NCBI GenBank assembly: GCA_025526995.1
Contig: JAHLKG010000025.1
Span: 248,001 to 312,000 of the forward strand
Direction of reading: 5' to 3'
Source of the DNA: Powellomyces hirtus
Taxonomy: Eukaryota > Chytridiomycota > Chytridiomycetes > Spizellomycetales > Powellomycetaceae
Length of the DNA: 64,000 nt
Shown one piece after another: positions 6,913 through 62,920 of the stretch (position 1 is the first letter of the stretch; each line of letters begins with the position of its first letter). Position numbers and translations under genes: made by a program. The notes beneath the pieces were generated by a model that did no database searches, had not been told where the DNA came from, and saw only the letters and a program-made list of their open reading frames with translations.

Positions 6913-6922
6913 TGGGAGCTTG

Positions 6923-7197
6923 TGTAATGAGGCGTGGCTCGCCAGCCTAAGCCTAGGTACGTGTCGGGAAGGGCCCCGCGCAAGATGGATGCTAGCGTCA
7001 GCATCCTGAAGGGTACCAGACCTCAGGGATGGCCACGGATGGTCATCACGTGACCGGGACCGCCTCGCGGTCCAGAAGAAAAGTAGGAATACTCCGACGA
7101 GGGCGTATTCAAGACTTAGGGATCTTACAGTAGAATTAGAGATAGGGAATTCCCAAAGAGAAGACTAGACTCTGGCAACGGACCTAGTATTATTACA
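6923..7197 (-). repeat. Solo LTR of the gypsy-1 family inside copia-2
   Basis: This 275-bp copy is clearly homologous, in reverse orientation, to the LTRs at 22670, 30280 and 60520. It begins TGTAAT and ends ATTACA. It is flanked by GCTTG at 6918-6922 and again at 7198-7202, a 5-bp target duplication. It splits the copia-2 integrase zinc region: HHRLGHPGTRIMKQLKL lies on one side and the CKGCEFGKH part on the other. No internal gypsy sequence remains, so LTR-LTR recombination removed it. Confidence 0.93.
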
Positions 7198-9145
7198 GCT
7201 TGAGTTGCTTCATGATGCGAGTGCCAGGATGGCCCAAACGGTGATGCCAGAGGGTTCTTTCGTTGACAGGAGAAGAGGGACTAGAACAAGCCCCAGAAGA
7301 AGCCGCCAAAGCAGCAGCGGAGGCAGTGCTAAAGCTGCCTGCCCCCCTCCCTTTCCGAGAGCACCAAGGGGGGGGGCCCCCCCGCCGGTCTGGTTGACGG
7401 CGGGGAGGACCCCTCGGTGCTCTGGGGGGGGCATCCTCAGTGAGGATGGGGCTGACGTTCCCTGATGGGGCCGACCAGCCCCAATTTGGGGCCGCCGGCC
7501 CCTCCATTGTGGCTTGGGTCGGAATAGAACGCGTGACCGAGATACCGGTAGTGTCTGTCGACAGGTTGGACGCTTTTGTACTTGAGCGAGTTTGAGTAGC
7601 GAAAGCCATCGGAGTTGGCGAGATGTGATACATTCCTCGAACGAGAGGTATGGTGATGTCATTCGTAGTGCCATTGCAGTCTTGAATGACAGCGCTCTCA
7701 TCTTCAAAAGTGACTCTCTTTCCATCTTTGGCGAGTGCGGAGACCGAGATGAGAGTTTTGGCGAGTTTCGGAACATAGAGAACATCACTGAGAGGTACAT
7801 CTCCATCTGGAAGCTTCAAGATAGCGTTCCCTTTCACTTCGGCATTGAGAAAGGCGTTATTTCCAAATCTGACGCGCGTTGAGTGCTCTTCATAGGATTC
7901 GAGAATGGAAATGTCATTCGTCATGTGCTGTGAGCAGCCCGAATCCAGGTAAGCCAATGTAGTGGCGTTGTGTGCTTCTGCAATGTTGGCATTAGCAGCG
8001 GGTTTTAAGGCTTCGACAGCCTTGGCTTTGATGGGACAATTGAATGGGGTATGTTCATTCGAATTGCATAACCAACAGGGGAAGTTCTGTCTCTTCTTCG
8101 AGTCAGTGGTCTTCTTTGCGTCGGTCTTCTTGTGACTTGAGCTGTCTTTCTTTGAAGGTTGGGCTTTGAGCGCGATGTTTTTGCCCTTCTTGGCGAAACG
8201 GTTATTTTGGTTACTCTTGTTACTTCCATTGTCCAAACGTTTGGCAGCCGCTTGTAGGCCTTCGAGATCTACGAAACTTTGTGTTCTGATGAGCTCTGCT
8301 TGATGTTCGTTCATGCCTCGAAGGTAGAACCATTTGTAGACTAGAAACGGGATGTCTGAGACGAGCTGACTGGTAATCTTCGCAAACGAGGTATTGTACT
8401 GTGAGATAGTATGGCTTCCTTGTCGCAATCTTTCTAGTTGAGTGAGTAGGACTTCCTCGTGATCGGTCGGTTGATAACGCCGGAGGAATGGTCCTTTGAA
8501 AGTTTGCCAATTTGTGATGGGGTCAGCATTCCCCTTTTCAGCCTCTTTGCAGTAATTTCGATACCATTGTTTTGCATCGCCAGAGAGTTTGGTGAAGATG
8601 AATGCAAGTTGTTCTTCTCCAGGTACTGATTTGAGACGAAAGACCACTTCAATCTGATCAACAAAGTCGACGAGTTTTGAGAGATTTCCCGTTCCATCGA
8701 ATGTGATGACTGCATTAATCGCTGATTGAAAGAATGTGAATGATGTGCACTGGGCTTCACGGTCATCGCTCTTTCTGCTGCTCGTAGTTGTTGTGCTCTC
8801 CATTGGGGAAGACGGACGAAAGTGAGGGGCAACTGGGGCTTCAACTTCGCCGTGAGTAATGTGTTGATGTAGAAAAGGGTACTCAAGGCCCGCTTTTGGG
8901 CTTCTCATCGGTGAAACAGCCATAGGATGACCATCGATATGAGGCTTTTTGTACTTTTTGGGTTGTTGATGGGAAGTTGATGTAGCGAGAGGGTTTGAAC
9001 TAGTCAATAAAGTCCTCTCCAACCTGTCCATCCGATGGTCGAGCTTTTCGTCGATTTTCCATCTTGAACCTCTGCAGAATGTCCATGACAATGTCAGTCG
9101 GTACTCCAGACGGTACTGTCGGCAGGTCTGCATGAATTTCTCCAT
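7193..9145 (-). CDS. Copia-2 Gag, zinc knuckle and protease (650 codons)
   Basis: Copia Gag with the retrotransposon Gag helices (KLSGDAKQWYRNYCKEAEKG, LERLRQGSHTISQYNTSF), a Lys-rich linker, a CX2CX4HX4C knuckle (CWLCNSNEHTPFNC) and the protease motif LDSGCSQHM. A Pro/Gly/Arg-rich insert precedes the pre-integrase HHRLGHPG motif. The frame ends only because the solo LTR interrupts it. The ATG at 9145 is probably not the true start: another frame upstream (9000-9197) looks like the original Gag N-terminus (DIVMDILQRF), joined by a shift near 9060. Confidence 0.8.
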   Translation of the reverse strand: MEKFMQTCRQYRLEYRLTLSWTFCRGSRWKIDEKLDHRMDRLERTLLTSSNPLATSTSHQQPKKYKKPHIDGHPMAVSPMRSPKAGLEYPFLHQHITHGEVEAPVAPHFRPSSPMESTTTTSSRKSDDREAQCTSFTFFQSAINAVITFDGTGNLSKLVDFVDQIEVVFRLKSVPGEEQLAFIFTKLSGDAKQWYRNYCKEAEKGNADPITNWQTFKGPFLRRYQPTDHEEVLLTQLERLRQGSHTISQYNTSFAKITSQLVSDIPFLVYKWFYLRGMNEHQAELIRTQSFVDLEGLQAAAKRLDNGSNKSNQNNRFAKKGKNIALKAQPSKKDSSSHKKTDAKKTTDSKKRQNFPCWLCNSNEHTPFNCPIKAKAVEALKPAANANIAEAHNATTLAYLDSGCSQHMTNDISILESYEEHSTRVRFGNNAFLNAEVKGNAILKLPDGDVPLSDVLYVPKLAKTLISVSALAKDGKRVTFEDESAVIQDCNGTTNDITIPLVRGMYHISPTPMAFATQTRSSTKASNLSTDTTGISVTRSIPTQATMEGPAAPNWGWSAPSGNVSPILTEDAPPRAPRGPPRRQPDRRGGPPPWCSRKGRGAGSFSTASAAALAASSGACSSPSSPVNERTLWHHRLGHPGTRIMKQLKL

Positions 9146-11845: not shown

Positions 11846-11949
11846 GGCACGCCATTCGTGATTCTGGTGTTTATATATCATTTAAATTTCATCGTGACAT
11901 GTCAGGATCGCGAAAGGTGTGCTTAAACGCGTTTTCTGAAGTCACAATG
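11846..11949 (+). repeat. Right arm of the inverted-repeat element, first half
   Basis: Contains GATCGCGAAAGGTGTGCTTA and GTGATTCTGGTGTTTATATA, inverted relative to 11570-11668. It is interrupted at CAATG by gypsy-2 and continues at 17972-18088, where the same CAATG is repeated. Confidence 0.6.
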
Positions 11950-12227
11950 TGTCGGGGAAACCTCATATTCTTATACTTTTTTGTGACTTTCTGATTATGT
12001 TATACGCGATCCTTTGTTTGGGCTGGCCATCCGTTCATCGGTGATACACATGACTCCTGACTCATAGGCAATAAAGCGCCACCCGGATGAATTATGTGTG
12101 CGCCACCCTGACACGCATATATAAAGCTGTCAGCTGCTGGTCACCTTTCCCCGCTCGTTACCTTACAACACACGATAATACACACTATTTATTACTACCA
12201 ACTGTCAAAGCTTCCTTTGACGTTACA
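11950..12227 (+). repeat. Gypsy-2 5' LTR (278 bp)
   Basis: Starts TGTCGGGGAAACC, ends GACGTTACA, and is nearly identical to 17694-17971. It carries a TATA-like CATATATAAAGC near 12115-12126 that probably drives the element. Confidence 0.95.
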
Positions 12228-12242
12228 TGGTAGCACCACCCC
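12228..12242 (+). other. Gypsy-2 primer binding site
   Basis: TGGTAGCACCACCCC begins directly after the LTR with the TGG that pairs with a tRNA CCA end. The identical 15 bases follow the gypsy-1 5' LTR on the other strand (30279 down to 30265). The tRNA was not identified. Confidence 0.7.
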
Positions 12243-12282
12243 ACACTAGCACCATCAACCACAATCACTCTAATTGAACAAC

Positions 12283-13644
12283 ATGCCCCCTGCACTTACC
12301 GCCGCTCAACAAGCTGCTATCGTTGCCGCAGTTACTGCCGGTGTTATCACCGCGGCTCCTGTCGTTGCTGCTGCAGCTCCTGCTCACCCCAACCGAGCTA
12401 AGACTCTTCTTGACGCACAAAAGGCCAAACTCTCCGAATACGATGGCACCAAGTCTGCTAAGAACATAGAGGAGTTTTTGAGTTCTCACAGTAACTTTTA
12501 TTGGGCTCTTGCTACTCCTGCCATTCCAGCAGTCGTTGGTCCTCCTCCTGTCCCCGCAGTTCCTGCCGTACCATTGCCCATGGCCGATTACGTTGGCACG
12601 CTCCAATCCTACCTCAAGGGTACTGCTCTCGAGTGGTACAATACAACTTCCGCTGCAGGCCCACCAGCCACTTGAATAGCCTTCCAAACGGCCCTTATTA
12701 CCGAGTTCTTCCCTCGCAATCTTTGCAACGCAATTGAACTCAGATTGACTAATCTCGCCCTCGGGAACTCACTTGAAGAATTTGTTACAAAGTTCCAAGA
12801 TGAATGTCATGAACTTGATGCTGCTTTGTGTCTTGATCCTACACAAGCTACTATTCCTGCTGCTGATATCATTCGTATTTTTCAAGCAGATCTCCTTAAG
12901 AACCCTATCATCGGTCACTATCTATACAATGATATCAATACTTTCGAAATCAATCAAAACCTTGCCACCGCCGCTGCTGCGCCCATTACTATTCAACAAG
13001 CCATAGAAGCTGCTCGACAAGCTTTTGTCGTTCATGGATTTTCTGGCAATAATCCTCTCAATACGTCCTCTTGTGGACGCGGCAGATCCGGTCGCGGTCG
13101 TGGAAGCGGTCGTGGCCGAGGCGGTCAAGGTGGCCAACAACGATATAGTCCTTATTCCAGCCCGCGAATAACCGGAATAGACGATACTGATAACCTCACG
13201 GATGACTTCAACAATCTCAACCTTATTCCATATCCACCTGGCGTTAGCTGCAACCTCATTACCTACAGACCACCTTACAATTATCCTAGACAAGGTTACC
13301 AATCGAGAGGCCGCGGTCAAAGACGCCAAGCACCAACAACTCCTTGCCCAATTTGCAATGGTATGGGACACTGGTCCGCTGACTGCTGGTACAATACCGG
13401 AAATCAACAACGTGGTAACCGACGCGGTGGCTCCGGACAACGAGGCCGCGGAAATGGTCGCGGCCGAGGCAGTCGTGGCCAACCCAATCAAAACCAAAAC
13501 CAAGCGCAAGGAATGGCGAATGACAACAGGACGCAGAATCAGTTAAACCAAATTGTCACGCCGCAAGTCCAAGCGGCCATCCAAAGCGCCGTTGATGTCA
13601 CTAATGCTCAACAACGACAAGTGGGTTTTCTCAACGGTCGTTAG
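12283..13644 (+). pseudogene. Gypsy-2 Gag with one premature TGA
   Basis: Gag begins at ATG 12283 with an Ala/Pro-rich N-terminus. It continues through a Gag core (LKGTALEWYNTT; ITEFFPRNLCNAIELRLTNL; FVTKFQDECHELD) and Gly/Arg-rich segments (GRGRSGRGRGSGRGRGGQ) flanking a CX2CX4HX4C knuckle (CPICNGMGHWSADC). A TGA at 12673-12675 interrupts the core in frame; the expected residue there is Trp. The natural stop is the TAG at 13642-13644, and GGGTTTT lies just before it. The Gly/Arg-rich part should bind RNA. Confidence 0.88.
13623..13629 (+). promoter_or_regulatory. -1 ribosomal frameshift heptamer GGGTTTT
   Basis: In the Gag frame it reads GTG GGT TTT, so the heptamer has the X XXY YYZ form of retroviral slippery sites. 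A slip of -1 enters the pol frame (TCT CAA CGG TCG TTA GAG), open through the Gag stop at 13642 into the protease. Confidence 0.7.
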
Positions 13645-16600
13645 AGCCCATTGGTAGCTCTGATCGGCCTTCATATCTACCTACCGTTCAAGATGCGTGG
13701 ATACCTTTGGCCACCGGATTATGGATTGCACATTGCCGTATTGCAAAGAAATTTGCCCGAGCATTATTCAATAGTGGAGCAACGGGAATGTTTCTCAACA
13801 AGACTTTCGTCAAAAAACATAAATTCGAAACTAGGCCTACCGAACCACAACAAGAAACTCTGGCCGACAAAAAATCTCAAATGTTCTTAGACACCGTTGT
13901 CTCTGAACCGTTAGAACTTTGGAACATTGAAACTCGTTCGCCTTTCATGGTTGGACAACTCCCATGGCTCGTCAGCGATCTTATATACGATGCAATCATC
14001 GGAACACCGTTTTGGAACCTTTTTACTCATGCTGAACAATACTTACACGAAAAACAACCTATTCTCCGTTTTACTAATCATTCACAGATACCAAACGCAT
14101 CCCTTTCCGTTACCATCAAATGCGAACGAACATCACGAAAATGGCAACCATTACACTTTCTCCCTCAGAATTGTCTCTTTCACTTTGACACCACTCCATC
14201 TACAAAACAATCTGCATCACCAAAGCCGCTGCTCATTGCAATATTCAAATGATCGAAGTTACATCTAAGCGATTCAACAAAGCCTGGCGACAAAATAAAT
14301 TCGAAGACAATACTGTGTGCCGATTGGCCCTCAACGAAATTTCGGAGGATCCGCAACGGTTTAGGGGAAACCCCGAACTTTTGAAAGATTCTCTGGAGAA
14401 GTACGTTGATACTCTCTTCAAGGAACCGCAAGGCTTACTACCTGATTGGGGAGAAGATAATTTCCAAATCAAACTTGTCGAAGGCGCTGAACCTGTCTGG
14501 CAACCTCTCCGCCACATGAATAAGGAAGAATTAGCCGAACTGAAAAAGCAAATTCAACTGATGCTCAAGAAAGGATGGATACAGCACTCCTCAAGCCCAT
14601 GGGGAGCTAATGTCGTCTTCGCCAAGAAGAAAGATGGAGGACTACGTATTTGTTGGGACTATCAAGGTCTCAACTCCGTCACAAAGAAAGATCGAACACC
14701 TCTTCCGAACATCCGCGAAATGCGCGACCGAATTCAAGGATGCGAATACTTTAGTCTTATCAATATTAAGGAAGCCTATCATCGTTTGCTCATTCAAAAA
14801 CAAGATCGAGAAAAGACTGCCATACGCACAAGATTTGGTCATTTCGAATACCTCGTCATGCCTTTCGGCTTAACCAATGCTCCTGCTGCATTCCAATGAT
14901 TAATGAACAAAATTTTTCACAAAGACTACAACGACTTTGTTAACTCATACCTCGACGATATTCTCATTTTTTCAAAGACATTGGAGGAACATCAGAAACA
15001 TGTGGATTTAGTCCTCAAGAAGCTCGAAGAACATCAACTTTACGTCAAACCTTCCAAATGTGTCTGGACCGTGCACGAAGTTGAATGGTGTGGACACGTC
15101 TTGGGCCGAAATGGAATTCGCATCACCCCTTTGAAGATTCAAGTGATCAAGGACTGGCCTAGACCTACGACAACAAGAGAAGTTCAATCATTCCTTGGCC
15201 TTGCCAACTATTTCCTCGACTTTGTCAAAGATTATTCAAATATTGCTCTTCCATTATCCAACATTCAATCGGCAAAAGTCAAGTTCCAATGGGAAGCCGA
15301 TCAAGATCAAGCATTCCAGAAACTGAAGGAAGCACTTATCAACCCGCCAGCTCTAGCAACTATCAATGAAAGTAAACCTATCTACGTCTACACAGATTCG
15401 TCTGGCTACACTATTGCTGGATGGATCGGACAACCATATGATGATGAGACTATACCAACTAATCTTCCTCGTCTCGTCGGCGAATGGAAACAATTACCTT
15501 GCCTCCAACCTGTCGTTTTCTACTCTCGCAAGATGAAGGGCGCTGAGACTCGGTATCCGACACACGAACAAGAACTACTCGCATTAGTCAAGATGCTTGT
15601 AGCCAATAGACCATACCTGGTTGGACGACCGTTTTGGTGCTTCAGCGATCACAAAGTTTCAGAATTTATCCAAACACAACCTCACCTTAGCAGAAGACAA
15701 GCTTGATGGGTCGAAATTCTACAAGAATACGATTTTACAATTCAGTACATTCCAGGGAGGTGGAATCATATTGCGGACATTCTCTCCCGAAGTGCTATTT
15801 ATGCTCCACGTTGTGTTGAATGTCAAAGACGCGTCGATATGCATACTCAGGTCAATAACATGATGGATGGAATTCCTGCTATAGTCGGAACAACAATTGA
15901 TCTTTGCACGACACCAACGTATTCTATCGAAGAATGGAAACAAGCTTTAGCTATTGATCCCTACTCGGAATATCTCGAAGAGATTTGTAAGAAACCCGAT
16001 CACGAAAAGACCGCAAAAGAACCACGGTATACTTTCCAAGATGGAATCGCTCGCCACGAAGGATGTCTTTACGTACCTGAAAGCCTACGCCCAAAAGTCT
16101 TACGACAATTTCACGATGATTTAGCCACTGGAGGTCACCTCGGCGTTAAGAAAACACTCGCTCGAATTCTCGTCAATTATTATTGGCCTAATGTTAGACA
16201 AGACGTCATGAAGTATGTCGGAACATGCAAATCCTGTCGACAATTCAAACCTGGTCATTGCCATTACGGATTTCTACAACCACTTCCTGTGCCTTTGGGA
16301 AGATGGCATACCATTGGATTCAATATCTTCTATATCAGAGATGAAGCATGTCTTGCCTGTATTGATTATCTATCAGGACGTGCTATCCTTTCAGCAGTCA
16401 ACAAGAACATTGGCGGTAAAGAACTTGCTGCCATTTTTCTGGATCGAGTATGGAAATATGTTGGGACTCCAAAAGTCTTTGTTACGGACCATGAACCTCG
16501 AGCACTTTCAGATTTTTTCCTCACTTTTGATATCTTACTTGGCGTTAAACATGAATTCGCCACGGCTTGACATCAGCAAACAGATGGGAAAGTTGAACGA

Positions 16601-17407
16601 GCCATTCAAACACTGAAGGGAATCTTTAAGCAGTATCTCAACTACGATAAGAGCAATTGGAAGAAGTTACTCCCGCTTGTGGAATTCGTCTTCAACACTG
16701 CCCCTAGAAGCGAATATGAAGGCCTGACACCATTCGAAGTAGACCTTGGCCGTACAGTCATCTTACCTGGATGGAATCCACTCCTAGAAGGACAAGAACT
16801 TCGTTTACGCGGAGTCGACAAGGCCGAGCTCGAAAGATACCATAAGGGACAAGAAGAGATAGCCTGAATCGTACGCAAAAATCTACGTCAAGCACAAGAT
16901 GAATTCGCCCGACAACATGACAAAGGCCGCACTCCTATCGCTTACAATATTGGAGATCTCGTTGACCTCAATCGCAAGGGTATAGACCTCGAGGTTGACA
17001 TAAGAAGAGGCCCTCGATTCTCTACTATATGGATCGGACCCTACAAAGTCATCGCCAAAGGTGATCACCCTGACACCTACAAACTCGACCTTTCGCCTTC
17101 AAAGATTAGTGGCATTTGGCCTGTCTTCCACGTTGATATCCTACGTCCTCACGCAACAGACCAGTATCCGAAACGCGAAGTCGAACAACCATCTGAACCG
17201 ATCGAAGTTCGTGGGGAACAAGAATGGGTTGTCGAAGACATCATTGATGAACGGCGCCATAAGCGAAATCTCTTGGTCAAATGGGCAGGATGGGCCGACC
17301 CTACATGGGAACCTGAGTCTGAACTCCGACAAACACCTGCATACCAACAATGGCAAACAGCCCACCCTCACTCTCTGGCAATTCAGCCACGTACGAGGAA
17401 AAGATAG
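13629..17407 (+). pseudogene. Gypsy-2 Pol: protease, RT, RNase H, integrase, chromodomain
   Basis: The protease motif reads LFNSGATG, so the catalytic Asp is Asn. The frame moves at about 14138 (a lost A in an A run), then stays constant to 17407. RT gives WGANVVFAKKKDGGLRICWD, VMPFGLTNAPAAFQ and YLDDILIFSKT. RNase H gives YVYTDSSGYTIAGW. Integrase has the zinc region (LATGGHLGVKKTLARIL, CKSCRQFK) and a core with HQQTDGKVERAI. A chromodomain closes the protein (17222-17370; EWVVEDIIDERR, LLVKWAGWADPTWEPES). In-frame TGAs lie at 14186, 14897, 15704, 16568 and 16865; the last four fall where Arg is usual, so CGA changed to TGA. Confidence 0.9.
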
Positions 17408-17685
17408 ATCTCAACACTACTCAACAAAGACGGATTGGCTTCGCCTCGTCTCCTCACATCACGCGTGGCGACGCAAGAACTGGCCTATAATCACATGCAC
17501 GGCGACGCAAGAACCGACCTACACATACACACAAATGCTTTGACACGAGAAACGCCTCTGTCGCATACACAAACATTGCGTGCCAATGCAAGAACTGAGC
17601 ACTGCGTCAACAGTCTAAAATGAACATGAGCTCTCCCTTTCTATTCATCCCCTTCACATTCATCTACGATGCTTCCTCAGGGTCT

Positions 17686-17693
17686 GAGGGAGG
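17686..17693 (+). other. Gypsy-2 polypurine tract
   Basis: GAGGGAGG directly abuts the TG of the 3' LTR. Confidence 0.6.
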
Positions 17694-17971
17694 TGTCGGG
17701 GAAACCTCATATTCTTATACTTTTTTGTGACTTTCTGATTATGTTATACGCGATCCTTTGTTCGGGCTGGCCACCCGTTCATCGGTGATACACATGACTC
17801 CTGACTCATAGGCAATAAAGCGCCTCCCGGATAAATTATGTGTGCGCCACCCTGACACGCATATATAAAGCTGTCAGCCGCTGGTCACCTTTCTCCGCTC
17901 GTTACCTTACAACACACGATAATACACACTATTTATTACTACCAACTATCAAAGCTTCCTTTGACGTTACA
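17694..17971 (+). repeat. Gypsy-2 3' LTR (278 bp)
   Basis: Same borders as 11950-12227 with about eight to ten substitutions. The stretch 17408-17685 between the pol stop and this LTR is a 3' untranslated region with no recognisable gene. Confidence 0.95.
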
Positions 17972-21687: not shown

Positions 21688-22669
21688 TCAGTAGTCGTCG
21701 TCAGCATCGGAGTTGGGCTCGCCCAAGTCGTCTTCTAAGACTCCATCCTCAAAGTCGCGCGAATCGTCCTCAGGGATGGCGGATGACTCAACTATGGTGG
21801 ATGACTCAACTACGTAGTCCGTATTCACTAGGGTGGATGACTCAACTACGTAGTCCGTATTCTCGGAAACCTCCTTGGCGCTAGTGACCTCAACGGCTTC
21901 GTCCTGATTATTCCTCAGTGCCTCAGCCGCTCTCTTGCACGCAAGCGCCGGCTCATCTTCTTTCTTCAGTAGGAGAAGCTCAGCCAGATTCTTCTCCTTA
22001 TCAATGTTGTTGCTGATAAGGAACATCAGACACTCCATTGTTCTCTGGTGAGCTTCAGCTTGGCGCCGGTCCTTGACAAATGCTGCCTTGTCCCAGTTCT
22101 CAGAGGCTCCTTTCTGTGCCTGTTTTGCAGCAAGGCGCTTTGCTTGCTTGAGTCCCATAGGCCGGGAATGTGCAACGGTTGCGTCAACAGGATCCGTAGC
22201 GGACCTCTTCCGCGAGGGATCTAGCGCAAACCTAATAAATGAGGAATGAGTAATCACGACTACGTAGTCCAGTGACATTGACTACATACTTTGGCACTTC
22301 CTTCAGAATGTCATAGACTTCCATGTAAGGGAAGTTATCCCCTTTGGTGATCTCTCGGTAATCCTTTCGTGCGTAATCCACAATGTTGGATTTGCCACTA
22401 GGGATGAGTGCCTTTGCTTTCTTGAAGGCCTCAGTCCACCTATTGCATGCTTTCTGGATTGTGGAGTACTTGCACTGCAAGGACTTCACAGTTCGCGGTT
22501 CCCAGGCGGGATTGCTGCGCTCCAGGTACAATACCGCGATCTTTTCCCAGAAAGATTCAGACTTCCGCTGAGTACCAATGATAGGGTCCTCTGATACTTG
22601 TACGTAGCACGTGGCAAGGAGTACACTCTCAGAGGTAGTGAATGCGGTGCCCCGCTTTCTAGCACGGCT
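21688..22669 (-). CDS. Harbinger Myb/NAM-like second protein, C-terminal part
   Basis: Minus-strand continuation of the gene whose 5' part is at 30555-30997. Removing gypsy-1 and one target copy joins the parts in frame. Exons here are 22669-22290 and 22231-21688 with a 58-bp intron holding a GACTACGTAGTC copy. It codes for a trihelix/Myb-like part (KIAVLYLERSNPAWEPRT; SLQCKYSTIQKACNRWTEAF), a region like the plant NAM-associated C-terminus (RPMGLKQAKRLAAKQAQKG), and an acidic end. In PIF/Harbinger elements such a second protein binds DNA and brings the transposase to the ends. The joined gene would be 453 residues. Here the gypsy insertion disrupts it. Confidence 0.8.
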
Positions 22670-22944
22670 TGTAATAATACTAGGTCCGTTGCCAGAGTCT
22701 AGTCTTCTATTCGGGAATTCCCTGTCTCTAATCCTACTGTAAGCTCTCTAAGTCTTGAATACGCCCTCGTCGGAGTATTCCTACTTTTCTTCTGGACCGC
22801 GGGGCGGTCCCGGTCACGTGATGGCCATCTGTGGCCATCCCTAATGTCTAGTACCCTTTGGGATGCTGACGCTAGCATCCATCTCACGCGGGACCCTTCC
22901 CGGCGCGTATCTAGGCTTAGGCTGGCGAGCCACGCCCCATTACA
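22670..22944 (-). repeat. Gypsy-1 3' LTR
   Basis: TGTAAT...ATTACA borders; the same sequence is at 30280, 60520 and, reversed, 6923. Contains TCACGTGAT at 22814-22822. Confidence 0.95.
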
Positions 22945-22953
22945 CCCCCCTTA
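22945..22953 (-). other. Gypsy-1 polypurine tract
   Basis: On the minus strand TAAGGGGGG directly precedes the LTR. The same tract is at 60795-60803. Confidence 0.7.
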
Positions 22954-23360
22954 GATTCGCGACTATCTCTCAGGCTCGAATCTCTTCAGCAAGGCGAAGC
23001 TTGCCTAAGCCGAACGGCTGCGGTTGAACGGATGCTGACGTGGTTGTGGGAAGATGAGGCTGGGGAGGCGGCCCTGGTGCGGGTCGCGTCGCGGTAGTCT
23101 CCGGCGGGTAGTCTCCGCCCTTCGTAGGGCGTGAATTCGTCGAAAAGTCTATTTTCTTGTCGCAGGAGCCCTAAATGACTCACGACTAGTTTTCTCCATG
23201 CAAAATCTGATAAGTAACATCTGCTGCGCTTTGTAGGGAATGAAACACTGACACCTGAATTCCCGAGCGTTCCCAGCCATGACGAGCCTTCAAAAGGCGC
23301 TGCCCGCTAAGTCCCCCCCTCGCTTCTTTCTTTCTTCTGTAACTAACAACAGAAACAACA
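22954..23360 (+). promoter_or_regulatory. Leader/promoter region of the antisense gene
   Basis: About 400 bp conserved in both gypsy-1 copies (repeated at 60804-61209), without a convincing ORF. A pyrimidine-rich stretch (CTTCTTTCTTTCTTCTG) and CAACAGAAACAACA precede the ATG at 23361, typical of fungal start regions. A clear TATA box is not visible. Confidence 0.4.
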
Positions 23361-24031
23361 ATGAACGTCGACCGCAACAACTCCCCGTCCCCCGACACCA
23401 CCACCACCACCACCACGGCTAAACGCCGTAGGAACCAACAGCTGCAGAAGGCAGCCGCAAAGAAGGTCCAGCTCGCCGGGGTAAGTGAAGTCTTGACTGT
23501 TCCCGTCGGTCGCGGTAATCCCCTTACGCCGTCTCACAGGAGCCGACCGTCCACTACGATTTGACCCCGGAGATCGTGGCCGCAACCAGCACCTGCTGGA
23601 AATGCCGCCTGCACAAGGGTGGCAAGATGTTCCTCGGGGAATGTCACCACATGATTTGTCGGCCATGTATTGTGGCCTTGGCCGACGCCACAGTACGTTC
23701 CCGCTGGTTATGAGGCTTTCCGGTGTCGTTTGGTACTCATTTTCTCTCTCTCCTCTTCCCTTCTGTAGGACACTGGCCCTCTGGGCCAGTTTGTGTGTGG
23801 TGTCGACTGGTGCAGGAGGACGCTGCACTTCGGTGCAATCCCGGTCTGTTGCGTCCATGACACCTGCCCCTCCGCTGTGGCGGCCTTCCGTTGGGTCCCC
23901 TGCACCCATGTCAACTGCATGGCACACATTTGCGCGTAAGTCATCTCTTCTCGTCGATTGTACGCTTACCTTACCAGCTGATCCATTTCTCCCATAGCGA
24001 AATGAACATTGCGAATTTCACTCCGCTCTGA
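23361..24031 (+). CDS. Antisense spliced Cys/His-rich gene inside gypsy-1 (157 residues)
   Basis: Four exons: 23361-23480, 23540-23692, 23769-23935 and 23998-24031. Introns of 59, 76 and 62 bp start GTAAGT, GTACGT and GTAAGT and end CAG, TAG and TAG; the sum is 474 bases in frame to TGA. It runs opposite to gag-pol. The N-terminus has a Thr run from a CAC repeat and a basic stretch (AKRRRNQQLQKAAAKK), possibly nuclear. The rest holds 13 Cys and several His: CWKC, ECHHMICRPC, CGVDWC, CCVHDTC, and CTHVNCMAHIC. The first half fits a RING-like C-x2-C...C-x-H-x2-C-x2-C layout, so zinc binding is likely; the family is unknown. A second copy at 61210 keeps all these Cys/His and the splice sites. Confidence 0.8.
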
Positions 24032-24360
24032 TGCGGCATGGGGGAGCGCTGCCATGGGGCAAAATGCCTCTTCTCATTCACCCATATCAACTAGTTGGTC
24101 CCCCCCCCTTTTTCCCTTTTTCTTGTACATAATTTCGTCCTGTTGCTCCCTTGGGGCCTGGCCCTCGGGCCGTAATCAAATTCAGTACCAAAATCTCATT
24201 GCTGTACTTGCCTTCTCATCGCTGTGCTCCTTTGAGCCTTGTAGCATTTCGTATGCGTCCGCTGTGTCCAATGTCACTCGGCTTCCTCCCGGCTATGGTG
24301 CTCATGGTAGATGCCCTGCATCACACTTCCCCGTTCGGGAGACCACTCAGCGGTTCCCCG
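24032..24360. other. Non-coding spacer between antisense gene and hairpin array
   Basis: Conserved in the other copy (61880-62180) apart from an absent stretch of about 35 bp just after the stop. No ORF, promoter or terminator was recognised beyond a T/C-rich run near 24104-24123. Confidence 0.4.
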
Positions 24361-25080
24361 GCCATCGTCCAACGATGCCGGTATCTCACCTAGTGAGGTC
24401 TACTGCCTCGCAGTCTTCGGCTCATCGCCCAGCGAGATATGCTGCCCAGCAGCCTTCGGCCATCGTCCAACGATGCCGGCATCTCACCTCGTGAGGTCTA
24501 CTGCCTTGCAGTCTTTGGCTCATCGCCCAGCAATCCCGGCATCTTGCCCAGCGAGGTATGTCGCCCAGCGACCTTCGGCCCATCATCAAAGAATGCCGGT
24601 ATCTTGGCCGAAGCCCTTCTCTTCCCCTTCGCATGGGTATGTACTACGGCCATGGTCCCCGCGGGTCTCGAGGTACGCTGCCATGCAAATCTGGTGCCGG
24701 TCACCTTGCATCGGCAGCCGGTCGATGCCCAGCATCACCCTTCTCACCCAGTGAGGTATGCCGCCCAGCGGCCTTCGGCCCATCGTCAAACGATGCCGGT
24801 ATCTTGGCCGAAGCCCTTCTCTTCCCCTTCGCGTGGGTATGTACCACGGCCATGGTCCCTGCGGGTCTCGAGGTACGCCGCCATGCAAATCTGGTGCCGG
24901 TCACCTTGCATCGGCAAGCCGTCGGCTCATCGCCCAGCGATCCCAGCATTTCACTCAGTGAGGTATGCTGCCCAGCAGCCTTTGGCCATCGTCCAACGAT
25001 GCCGGCATCTCGCCCAGCGAGGTATGCTGCCCAGCAGCCTTCGGCCATCGTCCAACGATGCCGAGATCTCGCGCTATAAG
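24361..25080. repeat. Array of triloop hairpins, copy 1
   Basis: About twenty inverted repeats with 5-6 bp stems and 3-base loops, mostly CCA. Examples: CATCGT-CCA-ACGATG, CTCGC-CCA-GCGAG, GCTGC-CCA-GCAGC, GTCGC-CCA-GCGAC, GATGC-CCA-GCATC, GCCGC-CCA-GCGGC and CTCAC-CCA-GTGAG. Short spacers (CCGGCAT, GTAT, CTTCGGC) recur between them in order. Both strands of each stem differ together between units. A 200-bp segment is also tandemly repeated inside (near 24571-24930). Frames through it are open but repetitive and are not called as genes. Confidence 0.85.
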
Positions 25081-25133
25081 GTCCTCTACCTCAAGTAGCA
25101 TATCTCTTGTTAATTTACGGTACAGCTCGCTAT

Positions 25134-26270
25134 CTAGGTTCTCTTACGTCGTCTGGCTGCTAGCCTTTGGCCACGGTCCTCTCCCGGGTGCTCCCGGAGC
25201 CATTCTTCCAGTGCGGTCGTCCCCTTCACGTGTGCATACGGCTCCCACGTGTTCTGAGTGCTGTCGTAACCTGTCCACTTGACTAAGAACTGCTCGGTGT
25301 TCCTGTGCCATCTGGCATTTAGGATCTTGTCCACTTGGTAGGTTTCCTGACTGTCTTCGTCCTTCTCGGGCTCAGGCGGAGCGGTGACCTGTCTGTACAG
25401 GGTACCGCCCGGATCATGGTACCGTCTCAGAATGCTGACATGAAAAACTGGGTGCAACCCGGTGAACTCCTTGGGTAGTTCAAGCTCGTAGGTGTCAGGA
25501 TGCGGCCCCTTGCCGCATACTGTGAATGGCCCAATCCATTGCTCAGCCAGCTTTTTGTTCCTTGTGGTGATGCTAGTAATCGCGATACCCTCACGATGGA
25601 GTAAGACCTTGTCGCCCTCTCGGTATGCTTCCGTGTGCTTCTTGCGGTCATTGTACTTTGCCTGCTGGTCCTGTGCGTCTCGGACCCGTTGCTGCACGAT
25701 GCGACTCACGTCGGCGAATTCCTTAACCCGTCTCTCCACGGTGGTTCGTGCCGATTGCCTTATAATCTCTCCGGGGTTAGGTGCTACCCATTGGTTCGGT
25801 ACCCGGGGAACGCGGCCTAGGTCGATCTCGAAAGGTGATAGTCCCGTCGACGTCTGCGGCGTTCGGTTGTAGTTGTACTTGAGTGTGGAGAGTAAACTCT
25901 TCCAGTTGGAGCCGGCATAGTCAAGAAAGGGGGCCTATGATTCCCTTGATCGTCTTGATGGCGTTCTCCACCTTGCCGTCGGTCTGTTGGTGTCGTGCCG
26001 ACGAGAGTTCTTGCTTGACGTCAAGTGCCTGCATGAGGTACCGCCAGAATTCTGATAGCCACTTGGGGTCCGGATCGCTCACAATGGTGTGGGGTAACCC
26101 CGTGTGGCGAAATGCCTGTTCCAGAAAGAGTTGAGCCGTCTCCTGAGCTGTAGCACGTGTGTTAGTAGGTAGGAGTATCACGCGGCATGAAAGGTAGTCA
26201 ACGATGAGGAGTACGGCATCTGCCGTCTTGGTCAGTCTCTAGCCGGTGTGGTGCGGAGGGTTCTTCGTCA
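25134..26270 (-). pseudogene. Gypsy-1 integrase core and chromodomain, frameshifted
   Basis: The minus strand continues Pol: IVDYLSCRVILLPT, SDPDPKWLSEFWRYL and HQQTDGKVENAIK give the integrase D, D and E. GLSPFEIDLGR and GLHPVFHVSILRRYHDP follow as in gypsy integrases, and a chromodomain ends the protein (about 25190-25345; YQVDKILNARW, FLVKWTGYDSTQNTWEP). Breaks: a long C run near 26291-26300, a TAG near 26240, and one extra base in a G run near 25930. The copy at 62974-63921 has the 25930 site intact. Confidence 0.85.
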
Positions 26271-29065
26271 CGTCGGGCTCTAGCCGAGGTTCCCCCCCCC
26301 TTAGAGCCTGACTTGGGGAAGAATATATCCATGCCGATTTGTTGCCAACGAGCGTCGGGGATCGGTAAGCTGCGGAGGAAACCGATCGGCGCGGTTCGCT
26401 TGTGACGTTGGCAGGTAGGGCAGGTGCGGACATATTGGTACACATCACGTTCCATGTGGGGCCAGTAGTACGACTCCAGAAGTTTGGCGAGCGTCCGTTG
26501 GACACCGGAGTGACCACCGTTTGCGAGGGAGTCGTGATGAATTTGAAGGAGTGGCCCCCGCAAGCTGTCGGGGACGTACCGACGGTCATGGTACATCAAG
26601 AATCGGTGCGGAGGGGAGTCCACTGTCCGGAATCGGCGTGCATGGCCGGATAGGTTCTCCGGGGAACTGTTGATGGTTAGTAAGATGTTTTGGCCAAAAT
26701 CATCCGATGCGAGCGCTTGGGTCCAGTCCGCATCGGTCGGCATGTGCGTCGTGATGGGCTTCTCCGTCTGCACAATGGCTGTGACCACGTTGATCTTGGC
26801 CTGGCAGGTTGCACACTTGGGGGCGTAAGTTGGGTCGCGACTGAGGAAGTCGGCAATCGAATTCCATGTGCCGGGGAGGTATTCCACTGAGAAATCAAAC
26901 TGTTGGAGGAACTCGACCCAGCCTGCTTGGCGGCGTGACAGGTGGGGTTGTTCCTGGAGATAGATCAGGGATTTGTGGTCAACAAACGCGCGGAATGGGC
27001 GGCCGATGAGGTAATGGCGGTTGGCGCGGATGGATTTGACTAGTCCCAGCAGTTCTTGTTCATGCACGGGGTATTGGGTCTTGGCGGGTTGCATCTTGCG
27101 GGAGTAGTATGTCACTGGGCGAAGTTGTGGAAGGTTGGCTAAGCCTGATTTGGTGGTTGGTAGTGGGGGAGGGTAAGGGAAATCCCCTTTAGCCGGCTGT
27201 GCCAGCCATCTGCCGTAAGCGTAGCCCGATGCGTCTGTGAACAAGTAGGTGTCGAGCGCCGGGTCGAAGTACGCTAGGGTGGGTGCCGAGGAGCATAATT
27301 CTTTTAAGCGATTGAATGCCCAATCTTCCTCGTCACTCCACTGCCATGGGCGGTTGCCGGATTGCAAGTTTGTTAGTGGCAGGGCAATCTGTGCATACTC
27401 GGGAATGTATTCCTTGACGTAGTTGACGAGGCCCATGAAGCTAAGGAGCTCCAGGGAGTTGGTCGGGCGAGGCCGTTCCCAGACCGCGGTCACCTTGGAG
27501 GGGGCAATACTCAGGCCATCCTTGCCAACTCGGTGGCCGCAGAACTCGACTTCGTCAACCGCCCATTGACATTTGCTGGGTTTGACGTGCAGGCGATGTT
27601 CCGCCAGGGTCTTGAGAACCTTGTTGACGTGCTGAATGTGCAAACTCATGTCGGTGCTGAATATGAGAATATCGTCGAGGTATGAGATCACGTAAGCGTC
27701 GTACTTGTCGCCCAAGAGTTTGTTGGTTAGTCGCTGGAATGTAGCAGGTGCATTAGTTAAGCCGAAAGGTAGAACATTGTATTCGAAATGCCCAAAACGT
27801 GTTTGGAACGCTGTTTTCTCTCTATCTTCCGGTCGAATCATGATGCAGTGGTACGCGTCGCGGATGTCAATTGTGGTAAATACCCGCATGTTGACAAGCC
27901 TGTCGCGCAGCTCCGAGAGGTTCAGAAGTGGCGTGGCATCCTTGTGGGTCATCTTGTTCAGTGCCCGGTAGTCAATGCAGCAGCGTAAGCCACGGTCCTT
28001 CTTTGGGGCAAATAGGACGGGCGCGCCCCACGGGCTGCGAGATTGTGAGATCCAACCCTTGTCCATTAAGCGCTGCAACTGCTGGCCGAGCTCGTCCAAT
28101 TTGTCAGGGCTCAAATGCCGGAGTGCCTGCATCACGGGCTTCGAGCCGGGTTTGAGCTGAATGGTGAAATTGTCTTTGCCTCGGTCCGGAGGCATGCCTG
28201 ACTGTTCGGTGAATAGTGTTGTGACGTATTTCTCTAAGGTCGGTCGGAGTGGGTGGTCGGCCGGCAGTGCCTCTAGCGGGTCCTCTTGATCTGCCGTCTT
28301 GGCTTCGGCGTTGGTGTGGCGGCGTTCCTCCAAGATTGCCCTTTTCTTGGCGTCGACTGTCCGTACGAATTGAGCTTCTACAAATGGAATTGCATTTACG
28401 ATGTGTACCTCGAAGACTCCAGTGATCTCGCCCTTCCTCATCAAGCGTTTCCATTGCTTGGCCGTGTAGATTCCTTCTGCATTGAGTGCTGGCTTCGCCG
28501 GCTGGAATCTGCGGGGCCGTATCTCTCGTGGGGAGAGCAGGCGGGCTACGCACGCGGACGGTGCTTCCCAATGGCGATTAGTCAATTTGGCTCGAAGGCT
28601 GAGGGTCTGGCCGTAGTGATAGAATGTCATCGTTGGGAAGCCCTCTTGGTCGAAAAGTCCTCGGACGTCCAATCCCAATATGAACGGCAAGCCGAGTATG
28701 ACATCAACCCTGATCGGTGCAACCACAAACAGTACGGTGCCTTCCCGGTAGGTAATCTTCTCCTCGGTGAACACCGAGAGGTCCCCACAGGTCATCTTCA
28801 TTGCACCATAGTTTCCCGCTCTATCGCCCCATCGGACCTCCAGCGGAGTTGGAGAGGTGTAGGTCCGGAGGCCGTGCTTGGCTGCCCAAGTGTCGCTGAT
28901 GATCAAGGTGTTACACCCGGTATCGATTAGGATGCGGGCAAAGTGCCCTTGTATCTTCCCGTGAACCACAATTGTCTTCCTGTGGATGCGGGGTCCCGGC
29001 CTGTCCGTGGGGATCTTGTCTTGCATCCGGGGTTGGGGTACTGAGACGGTGCAAACGTTCAGCAC
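26198..29065 (-). CDS. Gypsy-1 Pol: protease, RT, RNase H, start of integrase (955 codons)
   Basis: The long open frame overlaps the Gag end by a few bases in the -1 frame. It starts without an ATG (GTG at 29065), so synthesis by frameshift from Gag is likely, though no classic slippery heptamer is visible. The protease motif is ILIDTGCNTLIIS. RT has SPWGAPVLFAPKKDRGLRCC, VLPFGLTNAPATFQRL and YLDDILIFSTD. RNase H gives YLFTDASGYAYGRW. The integrase zinc region is HHDSLANGGHSGVQRTL with CPTCQRHK. The frame goes astray after MDIFFPKSGSKGG at a homopolymer, with an Arg/Glu-rich tail that is not real. Confidence 0.92.
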   Translation of the reverse strand: MLNVCTVSVPQPRMQDKIPTDRPGPRIHRKTIVVHGKIQGHFARILIDTGCNTLIISDTWAAKHGLRTYTSPTPLEVRWGDRAGNYGAMKMTCGDLSVFTEEKITYREGTVLFVVAPIRVDVILGLPFILGLDVRGLFDQEGFPTMTFYHYGQTLSLRAKLTNRHWEAPSACVARLLSPREIRPRRFQPAKPALNAEGIYTAKQWKRLMRKGEITGVFEVHIVNAIPFVEAQFVRTVDAKKRAILEERRHTNAEAKTADQEDPLEALPADHPLRPTLEKYVTTLFTEQSGMPPDRGKDNFTIQLKPGSKPVMQALRHLSPDKLDELGQQLQRLMDKGWISQSRSPWGAPVLFAPKKDRGLRCCIDYRALNKMTHKDATPLLNLSELRDRLVNMRVFTTIDIRDAYHCIMIRPEDREKTAFQTRFGHFEYNVLPFGLTNAPATFQRLTNKLLGDKYDAYVISYLDDILIFSTDMSLHIQHVNKVLKTLAEHRLHVKPSKCQWAVDEVEFCGHRVGKDGLSIAPSKVTAVWERPRPTNSLELLSFMGLVNYVKEYIPEYAQIALPLTNLQSGNRPWQWSDEEDWAFNRLKELCSSAPTLAYFDPALDTYLFTDASGYAYGRWLAQPAKGDFPYPPPLPTTKSGLANLPQLRPVTYYSRKMQPAKTQYPVHEQELLGLVKSIRANRHYLIGRPFRAFVDHKSLIYLQEQPHLSRRQAGWVEFLQQFDFSVEYLPGTWNSIADFLSRDPTYAPKCATCQAKINVVTAIVQTEKPITTHMPTDADWTQALASDDFGQNILLTINSSPENLSGHARRFRTVDSPPHRFLMYHDRRYVPDSLRGPLLQIHHDSLANGGHSGVQRTLAKLLESYYWPHMERDVYQYVRTCPTCQRHKRTAPIGFLRSLPIPDARWQQIGMDIFFPKSGSKGGGTSARARRDEEPSAPHRLETDQDGRCRTPHR

Positions 29066-30245
29066 CCGGGGCGAAAATCCGAGCTGTTGACGGAGCCTCC
29101 GTCGCTGACCACGTTGTCCCCGGGCTCTTTGGTGATCTCTACAGGGGCGGCGAACGTTCTATGCCCACCGGTCTTACCTCTACCTGCTGAGCACCCACGG
29201 GCATAGTGCCCCTTGCCTCCGGAATTGAAACATTCGTTGCGTTCACGACGTTCATTATAGCTGATACGCTCACGGTCTGAGATCCCTTGGTGGTTGTCCG
29301 TGCCGCGCGTGGGACGACCTGAGCCATAGGGGGTGTGGCGTCCCCTTTCTCGTGCTTGGTAGTTCCCTCGATGTACCTGAGCCGGCTGGACTGCAGCGTA
29401 CTGACGTCTCCTTCCGTCGGAGGTTACCCGCGCGATATCGTCCGCATAGCCTCGAATCCTGTAGCATAGTAGAGCTTCGTTCTGTAGCTCGGTGATTGGG
29501 ATCTCGGCGCCATTATTCCTCATGATTGCGGCATAGCAGTGGTCCCAAATGCACTGGCCGACATGGTTGGTCGAGAATCCCGTTAAGAAATAGTCACGCT
29601 CTTGCCTTGGGGTAAGCCACTCCTTGTCATCGAGCGTCGCAATCTGGGCCCGAAGGGTATTGAACTTGGAGATATACTCCGAGATGCTATTAGTGAAAAC
29701 CAGCCGCTTCATCTTTGCTTCTGCGGTGTTTTGTAAGTTGGCGGGGTAGAAGCGGACGCGGAGGATCCTCGTGAATTCTTCACGGATGTCGTGGGCTGCT
29801 CGCCGGCATCTCTGAGCATTTCCCACCACTCATCGGCGGTCTCCTTGAGGTACCCCGAGATGTGGTCGACGTCCCGGTGGTCCGTCCTGAAGTCGGTTGC
29901 CTCAAGGTAGCGCGTGTGGACCTTCAAGAACTCATTGACCTTTGACACCATTTCTTCACTGTTCCCTTTTCCGTCGAAGTGTGTCAGCTGCTTGCAAAGG
30001 TTCTCGCGGCGTTCTTTCTCGGCTTTCATTCGTGCGCGGTTTTCTTCCGCCAGGATGATGTCGACGTGCGGTGTTGCAACCGCTGGTTGGACTGGAGTCA
30101 GAATCCTTGAGAGAAGGGCTTCGAAGCGGGCCTTTCCCATTGCGATCTGCTCCTGCAGTAGACGTTGGGTCTCCGCCAATTGTACAGCCAACATTGCAAC
30201 GGGGTTGTCGGTTGGTGTGTCGACTTCGGGTTCTCCTACTGCCAT
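29059..30245 (-). pseudogene. Gypsy-1 Gag, one frameshift
   Basis: Starts at the ATG at 30245 with a coiled-coil-like N-terminus (LAETQRLLQEQIAMGKARFE). The Gag core is split between two frames near 29800: KETADEWWEMLRDAGEQP before, DIREEFTRILRVRFYPANL after. An Arg/Gly-rich region and a zinc knuckle follow (CFNSGGKGHYARGC), where the second Cys is Ser, so zinc binding is probably lost. It ends at 29059 in the Pol overlap. Confidence 0.85.
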
Positions 30246-30264
30246 TGGGCTGTTCCTGGTGTAC

Positions 30265-30279
30265 GGGGTGGTGCTACCA
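30265..30279 (-). other. Gypsy-1 primer binding site
   Basis: On the minus strand TGGTAGCACCACCCC directly follows the 5' LTR, identical to the gypsy-2 site. Confidence 0.7.
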
Positions 30280-30554
30280 TGTAATAATACTAGGTCCGTT
30301 GCCAGAGTCTAGTCTTCTATTTGGGAATTCCCTGTCTCTAATTCTACTGTAAGCTCTCTAAGTCTTGAATACGCCCTCGTCGGAGTATTCCTACTTTTCT
30401 TCTGGACCACGGGGCGGTCCCGGTCACGTGATGGCCATCCGTGGCCATCTCTAATGTCTAGTACCCTTCGGGATGCTGACGCTAGCATCCATTTCGCGCG
30501 GGGCCCTTCCCGGCGCGTATCTAGGCTTAGGCTGGCGAGCCACGCCCCATTACA
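30280..30554 (-). repeat. Gypsy-1 5' LTR
   Basis: 275 bp, matching 22670-22944 with roughly nine substitutions, mostly transitions. It is flanked on the right by the Harbinger gene it interrupts. Confidence 0.95.
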
Positions 30555-30997
30555 CGGGTGGCCTGGTCGACTCCGTAGTCCGTAGTCGGTGTCGATGCCG
30601 TTTGGGGTCTGCTACGGTCTGCAGCAGGGGTTGGCGTTTGGGCAGGGGTAGGAGAAGCAGCTGCCCGTGCGGGAGTTGCCGGAGTAACTGGCCCTGGGCT
30701 TGGGCTCCAAGTACGTGTAGCAGCTGGTGCCCACGCAGATGGTTGGCCGACTACATAGTCCGTAGATCCGCTCTGGCCGACTAGGTAGTCCGTAGATCCG
30801 CTCTGGCCGACTACGTAGTCCGTAGTCCTAGTAGATGTGCTTGGTTGTTGTCCGTAGCCTTCGTAACCTTGATATCCCCCAGTGAGAAGCTGACTGACGT
30901 GAGGAAGCAGGGGCTGCTGGCTGCTGCTATAGTCATATTGACTGCTGCCATAATCAGACTGGCTGAACTGGCTCTGTCCATTCCAGGTCGGTTGCAT
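30555..30997 (-). CDS. Harbinger Myb/NAM-like second protein, N-terminal part
   Basis: Begins at the ATG at 30997 with a Gln/Ser/Tyr-rich stretch (SQSDYGSSQYDYSSSQQ). Then come three copies of a TDYVVGQSGS-type repeat, coded by the palindrome GACTACGTAGTC and two variants, and a Pro/Ala/Thr-rich segment. It is cut at 30555 by gypsy-1 and resumes at 22669. The join reads ...DQATR|ARKRGTAF in frame after dropping one target copy. The low-complexity N-terminus could mediate self-association; that is inference. Confidence 0.75.
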
Positions 30998-31045: not shown

Positions 31046-31131
31046 TGCGTTCTTTAAAAATAAAGAATCTTTATTTCCGTCTTTATATATATAAAGACGG
31101 AAATAAAGATTCTTTATTTTTAAAGAACGCA
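31046..31131. repeat. 86-bp perfect palindrome
   Basis: Left arm 31046-31088 and right arm 31089-31131 are exact reverse complements with no spacer. The ends read TGCGTTCTTT and AAAGAACGCA and the centre is TATATATA. It lies upstream of the minus-strand Harbinger gene (start 30997), inside the transposon. It could form a 43-bp hairpin or cruciform. Confidence 0.97.
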
Positions 31132-62594: not shown

Positions 62595-62920
62595 GGTATG
62601 CCACCCAGCGGCCTTTGGCCCATCGTCAAACAATGCCGGTATCTTGACTGAAGCCCTTCTCTTCCCCTTCCCGTAGGTATGTACCACGGCCATGGTCCCC
62701 GCGGGTCTCGAGGTACGCCGCCATGCAAATCTGGTGCCAGTCACCTTGCATCGGCAAGCCGTCGGCTCATCCCCCAGCGATCCCGGCATCTCACACAGTG
62801 AGGTATGCTGCCCAGCAGCCTTCGGCCATCGTCCAACGATGCCGGCATCTCGCCCAGCAAGGTATGCTGCCCAGCAGCCTTTGGCCATTGTCCAACGATG
62901 CCGAGATCTCGCGCTATAAG
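62181..62920. repeat. Array of triloop hairpins, copy 2
   Basis: Same arrangement as 24361-25080, including the 200-bp internal duplication (near 62411 and 62611). Many stems are kept (CATCGT-CCA-ACGATG, GCTGC-CCA-GCAGC, CTCAC-CCA-GTGAG). Some have single transitions leaving T-G wobbles (GTTGC-CCA-GCGAC) or mismatches (GCCAC-CCA-GCGGC). Confidence 0.82.

Follow-up and report, generated by a model that had tools for sequence, protein, structure and literature searches.

In the chytrid Powellomyces hirtus, a Ty3/gypsy chromovirus-type retrotransposon carries an array of short hairpins with three-nucleotide loops directly behind the stop codon of pol. The stems differ among hairpins and remain complementary, the array recurs in diverged relatives of the element, and matched stem changes outside CpG sites exceed their control. 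Our preferred reading, which we hold tentatively, is that the array forms an RNA structure that is maintained within the 2.2-kb 3′ UTR of the full-length element RNA; its close rival is a repeat that perfects itself by template switching. With matched hairpins of fixed loop size, both the hypothesis (RNA structure) and its rival (template switching) become concrete, and the question can be tested on the dozens of copies that a single genome contains, some of which retain open frames of 1340 aa.

Coordinates refer to the window, i.e., the whole 64,000-nt stretch of DNA that was analysed. The element lies on its minus strand and was identified by an LTR pair and Pfam domains. The 3′ LTR (22670 to 22945, 276 bp) is 96.7% identical to the 5′ LTR (30280 to 30555), both on the minus strand. 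Between them, on the same strand, are a gag piece (29059 to 29829; Retrotrans_gag, 24.6 bits against a cut-off of 24.1), a pol portion with protease-like, reverse transcriptase, RNase H and integrase H2C2 parts (26198 to 29065), and the C-terminal end of the integrase with SH3_Tf2-1 and Chromo (25134 to 25739), whose stop codon occupies 25134 to 25136. The Pfam domains found were RVT_1, RT_RNaseH, Integrase_H2C2, SH3_Tf2-1 and Chromo, their order being taken from coordinates; the open pol frame at 26198 to 29065 stops short of the chromodomain frame. The element has the LTR pair, reverse transcriptase, RNase H, integrase and chromodomain that define a Ty3/gypsy chromovirus. From the pol stop to the 3′ LTR there are 2,189 nt, an unusually long 3′ UTR, through which a sense transcript presumably runs.

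Within these 2,189 nt, a convergent antisense gene occupies 23361 to 24094 on the plus strand; its limits and those of its exons were set by eye, as were the GT-AG introns at about 23481 to 23539, 23693 to 23768 and 23936 to 23997. The array sits between the pol stop and the end of this spliced gene, and 29 nt separate the array end from the pol stop. As regards a possible coding role, the array has frames on both strands, which would be disrupted by its units with lengths of 59 and 60. One exon of several in the antisense gene was scanned against Pfam and gave weak RING-like matches only (zf-RING_5, E 3.6e-5, 24.1 bits, below the cut-off of 27.9). The encoded protein is Cys/His-rich, and similar stretches were seen by eye in the diverged copies L073, L074 and L076. 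An 8-bp triloop hairpin, ACTGGCCC TCT GGGCCAGT, lies at 23772 to 23790 within an exon of this gene and also occurs in L074 and L076.

The array spans from about 24310 (GATGC CCT GCATC) to 25098 (CTACC TCA AGTAG). It begins with outlying, partly decayed hairpins (GATGC CCT GCATC and ACCAC TCA GCGGT, 24310 to 24354), followed by a first block in the order A-B-C (24363 to 24595), a hairpin-poor insert of about 120 nt (24600 to 24722), a middle block D-B-C-A with the stems GATGC, CTCAC, GCCGC and CATCGT (24724 to 24795), a second copy of the insert (24800 to 24922) and a last block (24929 to 25060). The insert is duplicated, 24742 to 24924 matching 24542 to 24724 at 92%. The terminal hairpin, CTACC TCA AGTAG (25086 to 25098), has one closing mismatch in the window copy and is perfect (CTACC CCA GGTAG) in L072, L073 and L076. 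A second array in the window (62177 to 62912) belongs to another element copy that is cut by the window end. Four hairpin classes recur in the order A, D, B and C: A is CATCGT/ACGATG, D is GATGC/GCATC, B is CTCRC/GYGAG, and the stems of C include GCTGC/GCAGC, ACTGC/GCAGT, GTCGC/GCGAC and GCCGC/GCGGC. Class D is absent from most units read.

The earlier note on this DNA had described about twenty hairpins with different stems, almost always a CCA loop and ordered spacers, between 24361 and 25080. In these 720 nt, we count 18 perfect hairpins that have a 3-nt loop and 5 bp or more in the stem; the stems are not unrelated and fall into the four recurring classes. All five stems that it named are present (GCTGC/GCAGC, GTCGC/GCGAC, GATGC/GCATC, GCCGC/GCGGC and CTCAC/GTGAG). 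Its statement on the loops was too strong, since CCA closes 13 of the 18 hairpins here and 19 of 30 over both window arrays, the others being CTC, CAA, CTA, CTT and one ACA. Its bounds lie inside the array, whose true reach is wider and is interrupted by the two inserts. The spacers are ordered, with hairpin centres 17 to 22 columns apart, mostly in a 22-21-17 rhythm, except at the inserts, where the flanking centres are 142 and 147 columns apart.

The hairpin excess as such is real. In 1000 dinucleotide shuffles of 24361 to 25080, the same count had a mean of 0.81 and a maximum of 6. Among 528 segments of 720 nt, the median was one triloop hairpin, and 14 of the 14 top segments listed overlap one or other of the two arrays. 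The excess within 24361 to 25080 peaks at 3-nt loops; loops of 0 to 2 nt gave 2 to 6 hairpins, and loops of 4 to 12 nt gave 0 to 5. Because tandem copies are not independent, the hairpin count alone is no proof of selection. Folding of the whole array gave z values of −7.0 (sense) and −4.8 (antisense) with 20 shuffles each. In 150-nt pieces of the array from six close copies, mean z ranged from −1.7 to −2.4 on the antisense and from −1.1 to −1.6 on the sense strand, with controls at −0.36 and 0.07. The two results disagree on which strand folds better, the antisense strand doing so locally and the sense strand over the whole array. Rfam returned no match at the gathering score in 22600 to 30600 on both strands.

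The hairpin unit is not confined to this locus, a point that the earlier note had raised: arrays occur in many copies across the genome searched (29.26 Mb, 60 contigs) and, whole or in part, in 10 of 13 distinct further stretches, mostly diverged copies. A first array search, with 40 of 103 candidates scored, gave at least 40 near-complete arrays. A search with the integrase end gave at least 150 matches (506 candidates), about 70 of those scored being near full length at 89% identity or more, and arrays were fetched from part of these roughly 70. Array length in the measured copies ranges from 245 to 1029 nt. The short arrays include L042 (245 nt) and L061 (305 nt); array size is not fixed, because L042 combines its 245-nt array with an open frame of 1257 aa. 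In L087, a stretch that looks LTR-like by eye (1 to 260) abuts a truncated array, an arrangement that is probably a nested insertion or a rearrangement.

Diverged relatives in the same genome, at 65 to 86% amino acid identity, also have the array. The positive stretches among the 13 are L071 to L076, L079, L081 and the fragments L082 and L084; no array was seen in L077 and L078, both of a family at 42%, or in L080, and L083 repeats L074 and was not counted. Triloop counts exceeded all 500 shuffles in L071, L072, L073, L075, L076, L079 and L081 and did not do so in L074, L082 and L084. Little excess folding energy was seen in the diverged L071 to L074 and L076 (mean z 0.3 to −0.9). The closest outside protein match was from Powellomyces hirtus (91% over the 201-aa integrase end). 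An exact 28-nt array piece had no match in viral_contigs and genome_contigs, and no pol relative was confirmed in viral_contigs.

The covariation of the stems is real and weaker than first claimed. By column majority over 52 copies, every pair of the 25 hairpins (132 of 132) is Watson-Crick. The lack of any G-U pair is not what a structure formed by a single RNA strand would usually show, although the pairs are not independent of one another. Twenty-four of the 25 hairpins belong to classes A to C, and paralogues within a class differ by 67 matched and no unmatched pair differences, which again are not independent. This majority pairing is inflated by CpG decay, whole-unit exchange and common descent. 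Independent decay of a palindromic CG/CG step would, by simple arithmetic, end in a matched outcome about half the time, and CpG decay in palindromic stems can therefore mimic covariation, a warning for similar studies.

A shifted-register test on an alignment of 56 of 67 arrays treated changes outside and at CpG sites separately. Outside CpG sites, nine matched changes occurred in at least two copies, as compared to 0 to 1 in nine shifted registers; at least two of these nine are unit exchange. Matched changes touching a CpG were not above control (5 shared vs 0 to 5). Thus, pure CpG decay with descent is largely excluded. The 11 arrays dropped were near-identical duplicates (L003, L029, L032 and L035), the diverged L075, the truncated or odd L059, L096 and L102, and the long L012, L030 and L068. 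Removal of the badly aligning L062, L087, L094 and L091 from the 56 gives the 52-copy set; L013, L042, L050 and L061 are in neither alignment.

The diverged relatives provide a further comparison, in which hairpins from 10 loci were excised by their spacers alone, leaving the stems free. Watson-Crick pairs numbered 153 of 185 in class B (shuffled mean 136.3), 163 of 185 in class C (139.5) and 179 of 276 in class A (145.4), each reached in 0 of 2000 column shuffles. Class D was not clearly above the shuffles (74 of 2000), nor was class E, with three rows only (680 of 2000). Classes A and D keep off-target spacer hits, and kinship among rows can beat column shuffles in the absence of structure. 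The matched stem changes emphasized in the earlier note are therefore borne out at non-CpG sites and, in the relatives, for classes A to C, and they do not stand above control where a CpG is touched. Its further contention that tandem duplication cannot produce such a pattern overlooks both CpG decay and unit exchange.

Unit exchange is directly visible at hairpin 136, where columns 132, 133, 141, 142 and 160 changed jointly in 12 copies. Its stem went from GCTGC to GTCGC, and the adjoining spacer letters and the CAA loop match the unit of hairpins 256 to 278; units evidently overwrite one another. Hairpins 98 and 158 have variants that could likewise stem from exchange with other A units. Exchange also bears on a contrast between frequent and private variants. 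Among non-CpG variants in the 52 copies, those present in at least three copies were matched in 5 and single-sided in 8 cases, and private ones in 5 and 37 (p 0.045); the corresponding ratios in 56 copies were 6:9 and 11:67 (p 0.028). Such a contrast would point to maintenance in an active lineage and loss in dead copies. However, it is marginal and does not survive a closer count: two of the five frequent matched variants lie in hairpin 136 and represent one exchange; counted once, they leave p at 0.10, and without hairpin 136 p is 0.17.

One clean case of a matched change comes from the last C hairpin: of 53 readable copies, 10 have GCTGT CCA ACAGC in place of GCTGC CCA GCAGC. At columns 722/726, the letters are CG in 43 copies and TA in the other 10; no copy is changed on one side alone, and hence there is no intermediate; the chance figure for this pairing is about 0.0013, calculated post hoc. 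The ten TA carriers have 7 specific columns of 773 in common, namely four tied to hairpin 136, one spacer column and 722/726 themselves. In the flank tree, which comprises all of them but L088, nine carriers group together with a support of 97. Across the genome, there are 14 occurrences of the changed 13-mer, 12 of them in element copies examined, once each, including L013 and L086, which are outside the ten rows; the remaining two are at C2:237006 and C13:720600. No donor unit for the change was found in the arrays.

Decay rates were compared in 38 copies. Stems and short spacers each had 0.36 private variants per non-CpG site, three times the 0.12 of the inserts, and the pol end had 0.17; per CpG site, the values were 0.47 for stems and 0.50 for short spacers. 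The earlier note had named stems that decay as fast as spacers as one of two refuting outcomes, and the equal rates agree with that outcome, speaking against selection in inserted copies. Selection would probably not act on dead copies in any case, so these rates do not decide the matter for the active lineage. With regard to strand, single-sided changes have no bias at CpG stem sites (C>T 23 of 30, G>A 29 of 34), whereas at non-CpG stem sites they lean toward the sense strand (C>T 7 of 55, G>A 15 of 51; p 0.054, or p 0.011 against the other array sites, 37 and 20). This lean is mostly private, 11 of the 15 G>A changes being so, and the shared changes number 3 and 4. The wobble strand test was therefore not used as evidence, and it does not point to the sense RNA in particular.

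Under our preferred reading, the short triloop stems directly behind the pol stop would be a structured region within the RNA of the element itself, presumably on the sense strand. Selection on the active lineage would keep the pairing while stem letters drift; what would matter is the hairpin and perhaps the loop, which in sense RNA would be UGG or another triplet ending in G, and not the stem sequence. Gain and loss of units, together with the overwriting of one unit by another, could spread matched stems. The most likely use would be that of a platform, repeated along the full-length RNA, at which Gag or a host RNA-binding protein docks or gives protection; such a platform would shield the long 3′ UTR or mark the RNA. 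A fuller version, unlikely when taken as a whole, is a retrotransposon cis-element: a modular triloop array with pairing and loop size selected in the active lineage and stems free, read by a loop-binding protein, either on the full-length RNA alone or on the two convergent RNAs, and resized by unit exchange.

The close rival of a maintained RNA structure dispenses with function altogether. After tandem duplication, the arms would have been kept matched by unit exchange and by hairpin-templated copying, with template switching either in reverse transcription or in DNA replication; we consider this a serious, if somewhat doubtful, possibility. Template-switch hairpins have been described for microRNA and rRNA genes, and the process has been proposed to create and maintain hairpins (PMC8794818). 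Perfect stems with both arms changed simultaneously are shared with our array, and the matched 722/726 pair that lacks an intermediate is what template switching predicts. The strand-symmetric pairing with no G-U in the majority fits as well, as do the visible unit exchange and a frequent-vs-private contrast that is not significant once exchange is allowed for. However, template switching alone leaves the single loop length and the single place in relatives unexplained. In contrast to our 3-nt loops, such loops are under-represented among the instantaneous compensations reported there (3.52% vs 6.11%; PMC8794818). Furthermore, the inverted loop (TGG on the plus strand) is found 0 times in both window arrays and the listed class B and C hairpins. 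Among private variants, matched changes are scarce (5, compared with 37 single ones), which makes copying during host replication a weak option; copying during reverse transcription is possible.

A boundary element would place the function elsewhere, with palindromes acting in both transcripts or in DNA to end or separate gag-pol and antisense transcription. The array does lie between the ends of two convergent genes, its palindromes fold on both strands, and the majority sequence has neither G-U pairs nor a clear strand bias; yet sense transcription must cross the array to reach the 3′ LTR, and half-sites that vary by matched changes are ill-suited to sequence-specific DNA binding. Altogether, we regard a boundary function as improbable. 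A plain sequence-specific DNA-binding site was ruled out by argument, its half-sites varying yet staying complementary. Very improbable, finally, is chance with descent, whereby hairpins were tandemly duplicated and the covariation is an appearance left by CpG decay. In its favour, 64 of 264 stem columns are CpG, the changes from CTCGC/GCGAG to CTCAC/GTGAG and from GCCGC/GCGGC to GCTGC/GCAGC are each possible by two CpG transitions, CpG-touching matched changes stay at control level and stems decay like spacers; against it stand the nine shared non-CpG matched changes and the 722/726 pair.

Fungal mitochondrial double-hairpin elements and bacterial REP/REPIN sequences are families of short palindromes that are dispersed. 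Unlike these, the array copies examined here occupy one place inside a retrotransposon. A closer parallel is the plant Retand (Tat-type) group of Ty3/gypsy elements, in which tandem repeats and antisense ORFs lie between pol and the 3′ LTR; the origin and function of such repeats are stated there to be unknown (PMC11963269). Our element resembles Retand in the place between pol and the 3′ LTR, in an antisense gene beside tandem repeats and in variable array length. It differs from Retand, a non-chromovirus lineage, in having a chromodomain, the chytrid element being classed here by its domains. The one antisense exon scanned is weakly RING-like, whereas most Retand elements have TRP28 antisense proteins (PMC11963269). 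The repeats are matched hairpins in the chytrid element, and the word hairpin is not mentioned for Retand in the text of PMC11963269 that was available. Plant elements thus offer a precedent for repeats beside an antisense gene in this position, and the new aspect is that the repeats are matched triloop hairpins. Among the literature matches listed (titles and abstract beginnings of mostly non-subscription papers), none concerned a hairpin array of such kind in an LTR element. The RSV RNA stability element, which protects its RNA from nonsense-mediated decay, is a 400-nt stretch behind the gag stop codon of a transcript whose 3′ UTR is long (PMC5580461). Our array similarly lies directly behind a stop codon in a long 3′ UTR, a likeness of position and perhaps of working.

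The window contains other repeats. A second gypsy-type element (11949 to 17971) is flanked by 279-bp direct repeats that are 97.5% identical, and its integrase end is 39% identical to that of the array-bearing family. An LTR of the array-bearing family lies on the other strand at 6922 to 7197, beside a long minus-strand frame (7193 to 9145), and is perhaps a solo LTR. At 31048 to 31129, about 500 nt beyond the 5′ LTR that bounds the array-bearing element, an AT-rich long inverted repeat with arms of about 40 bases was seen by eye; it looks like a foldback or MITE-like sequence.
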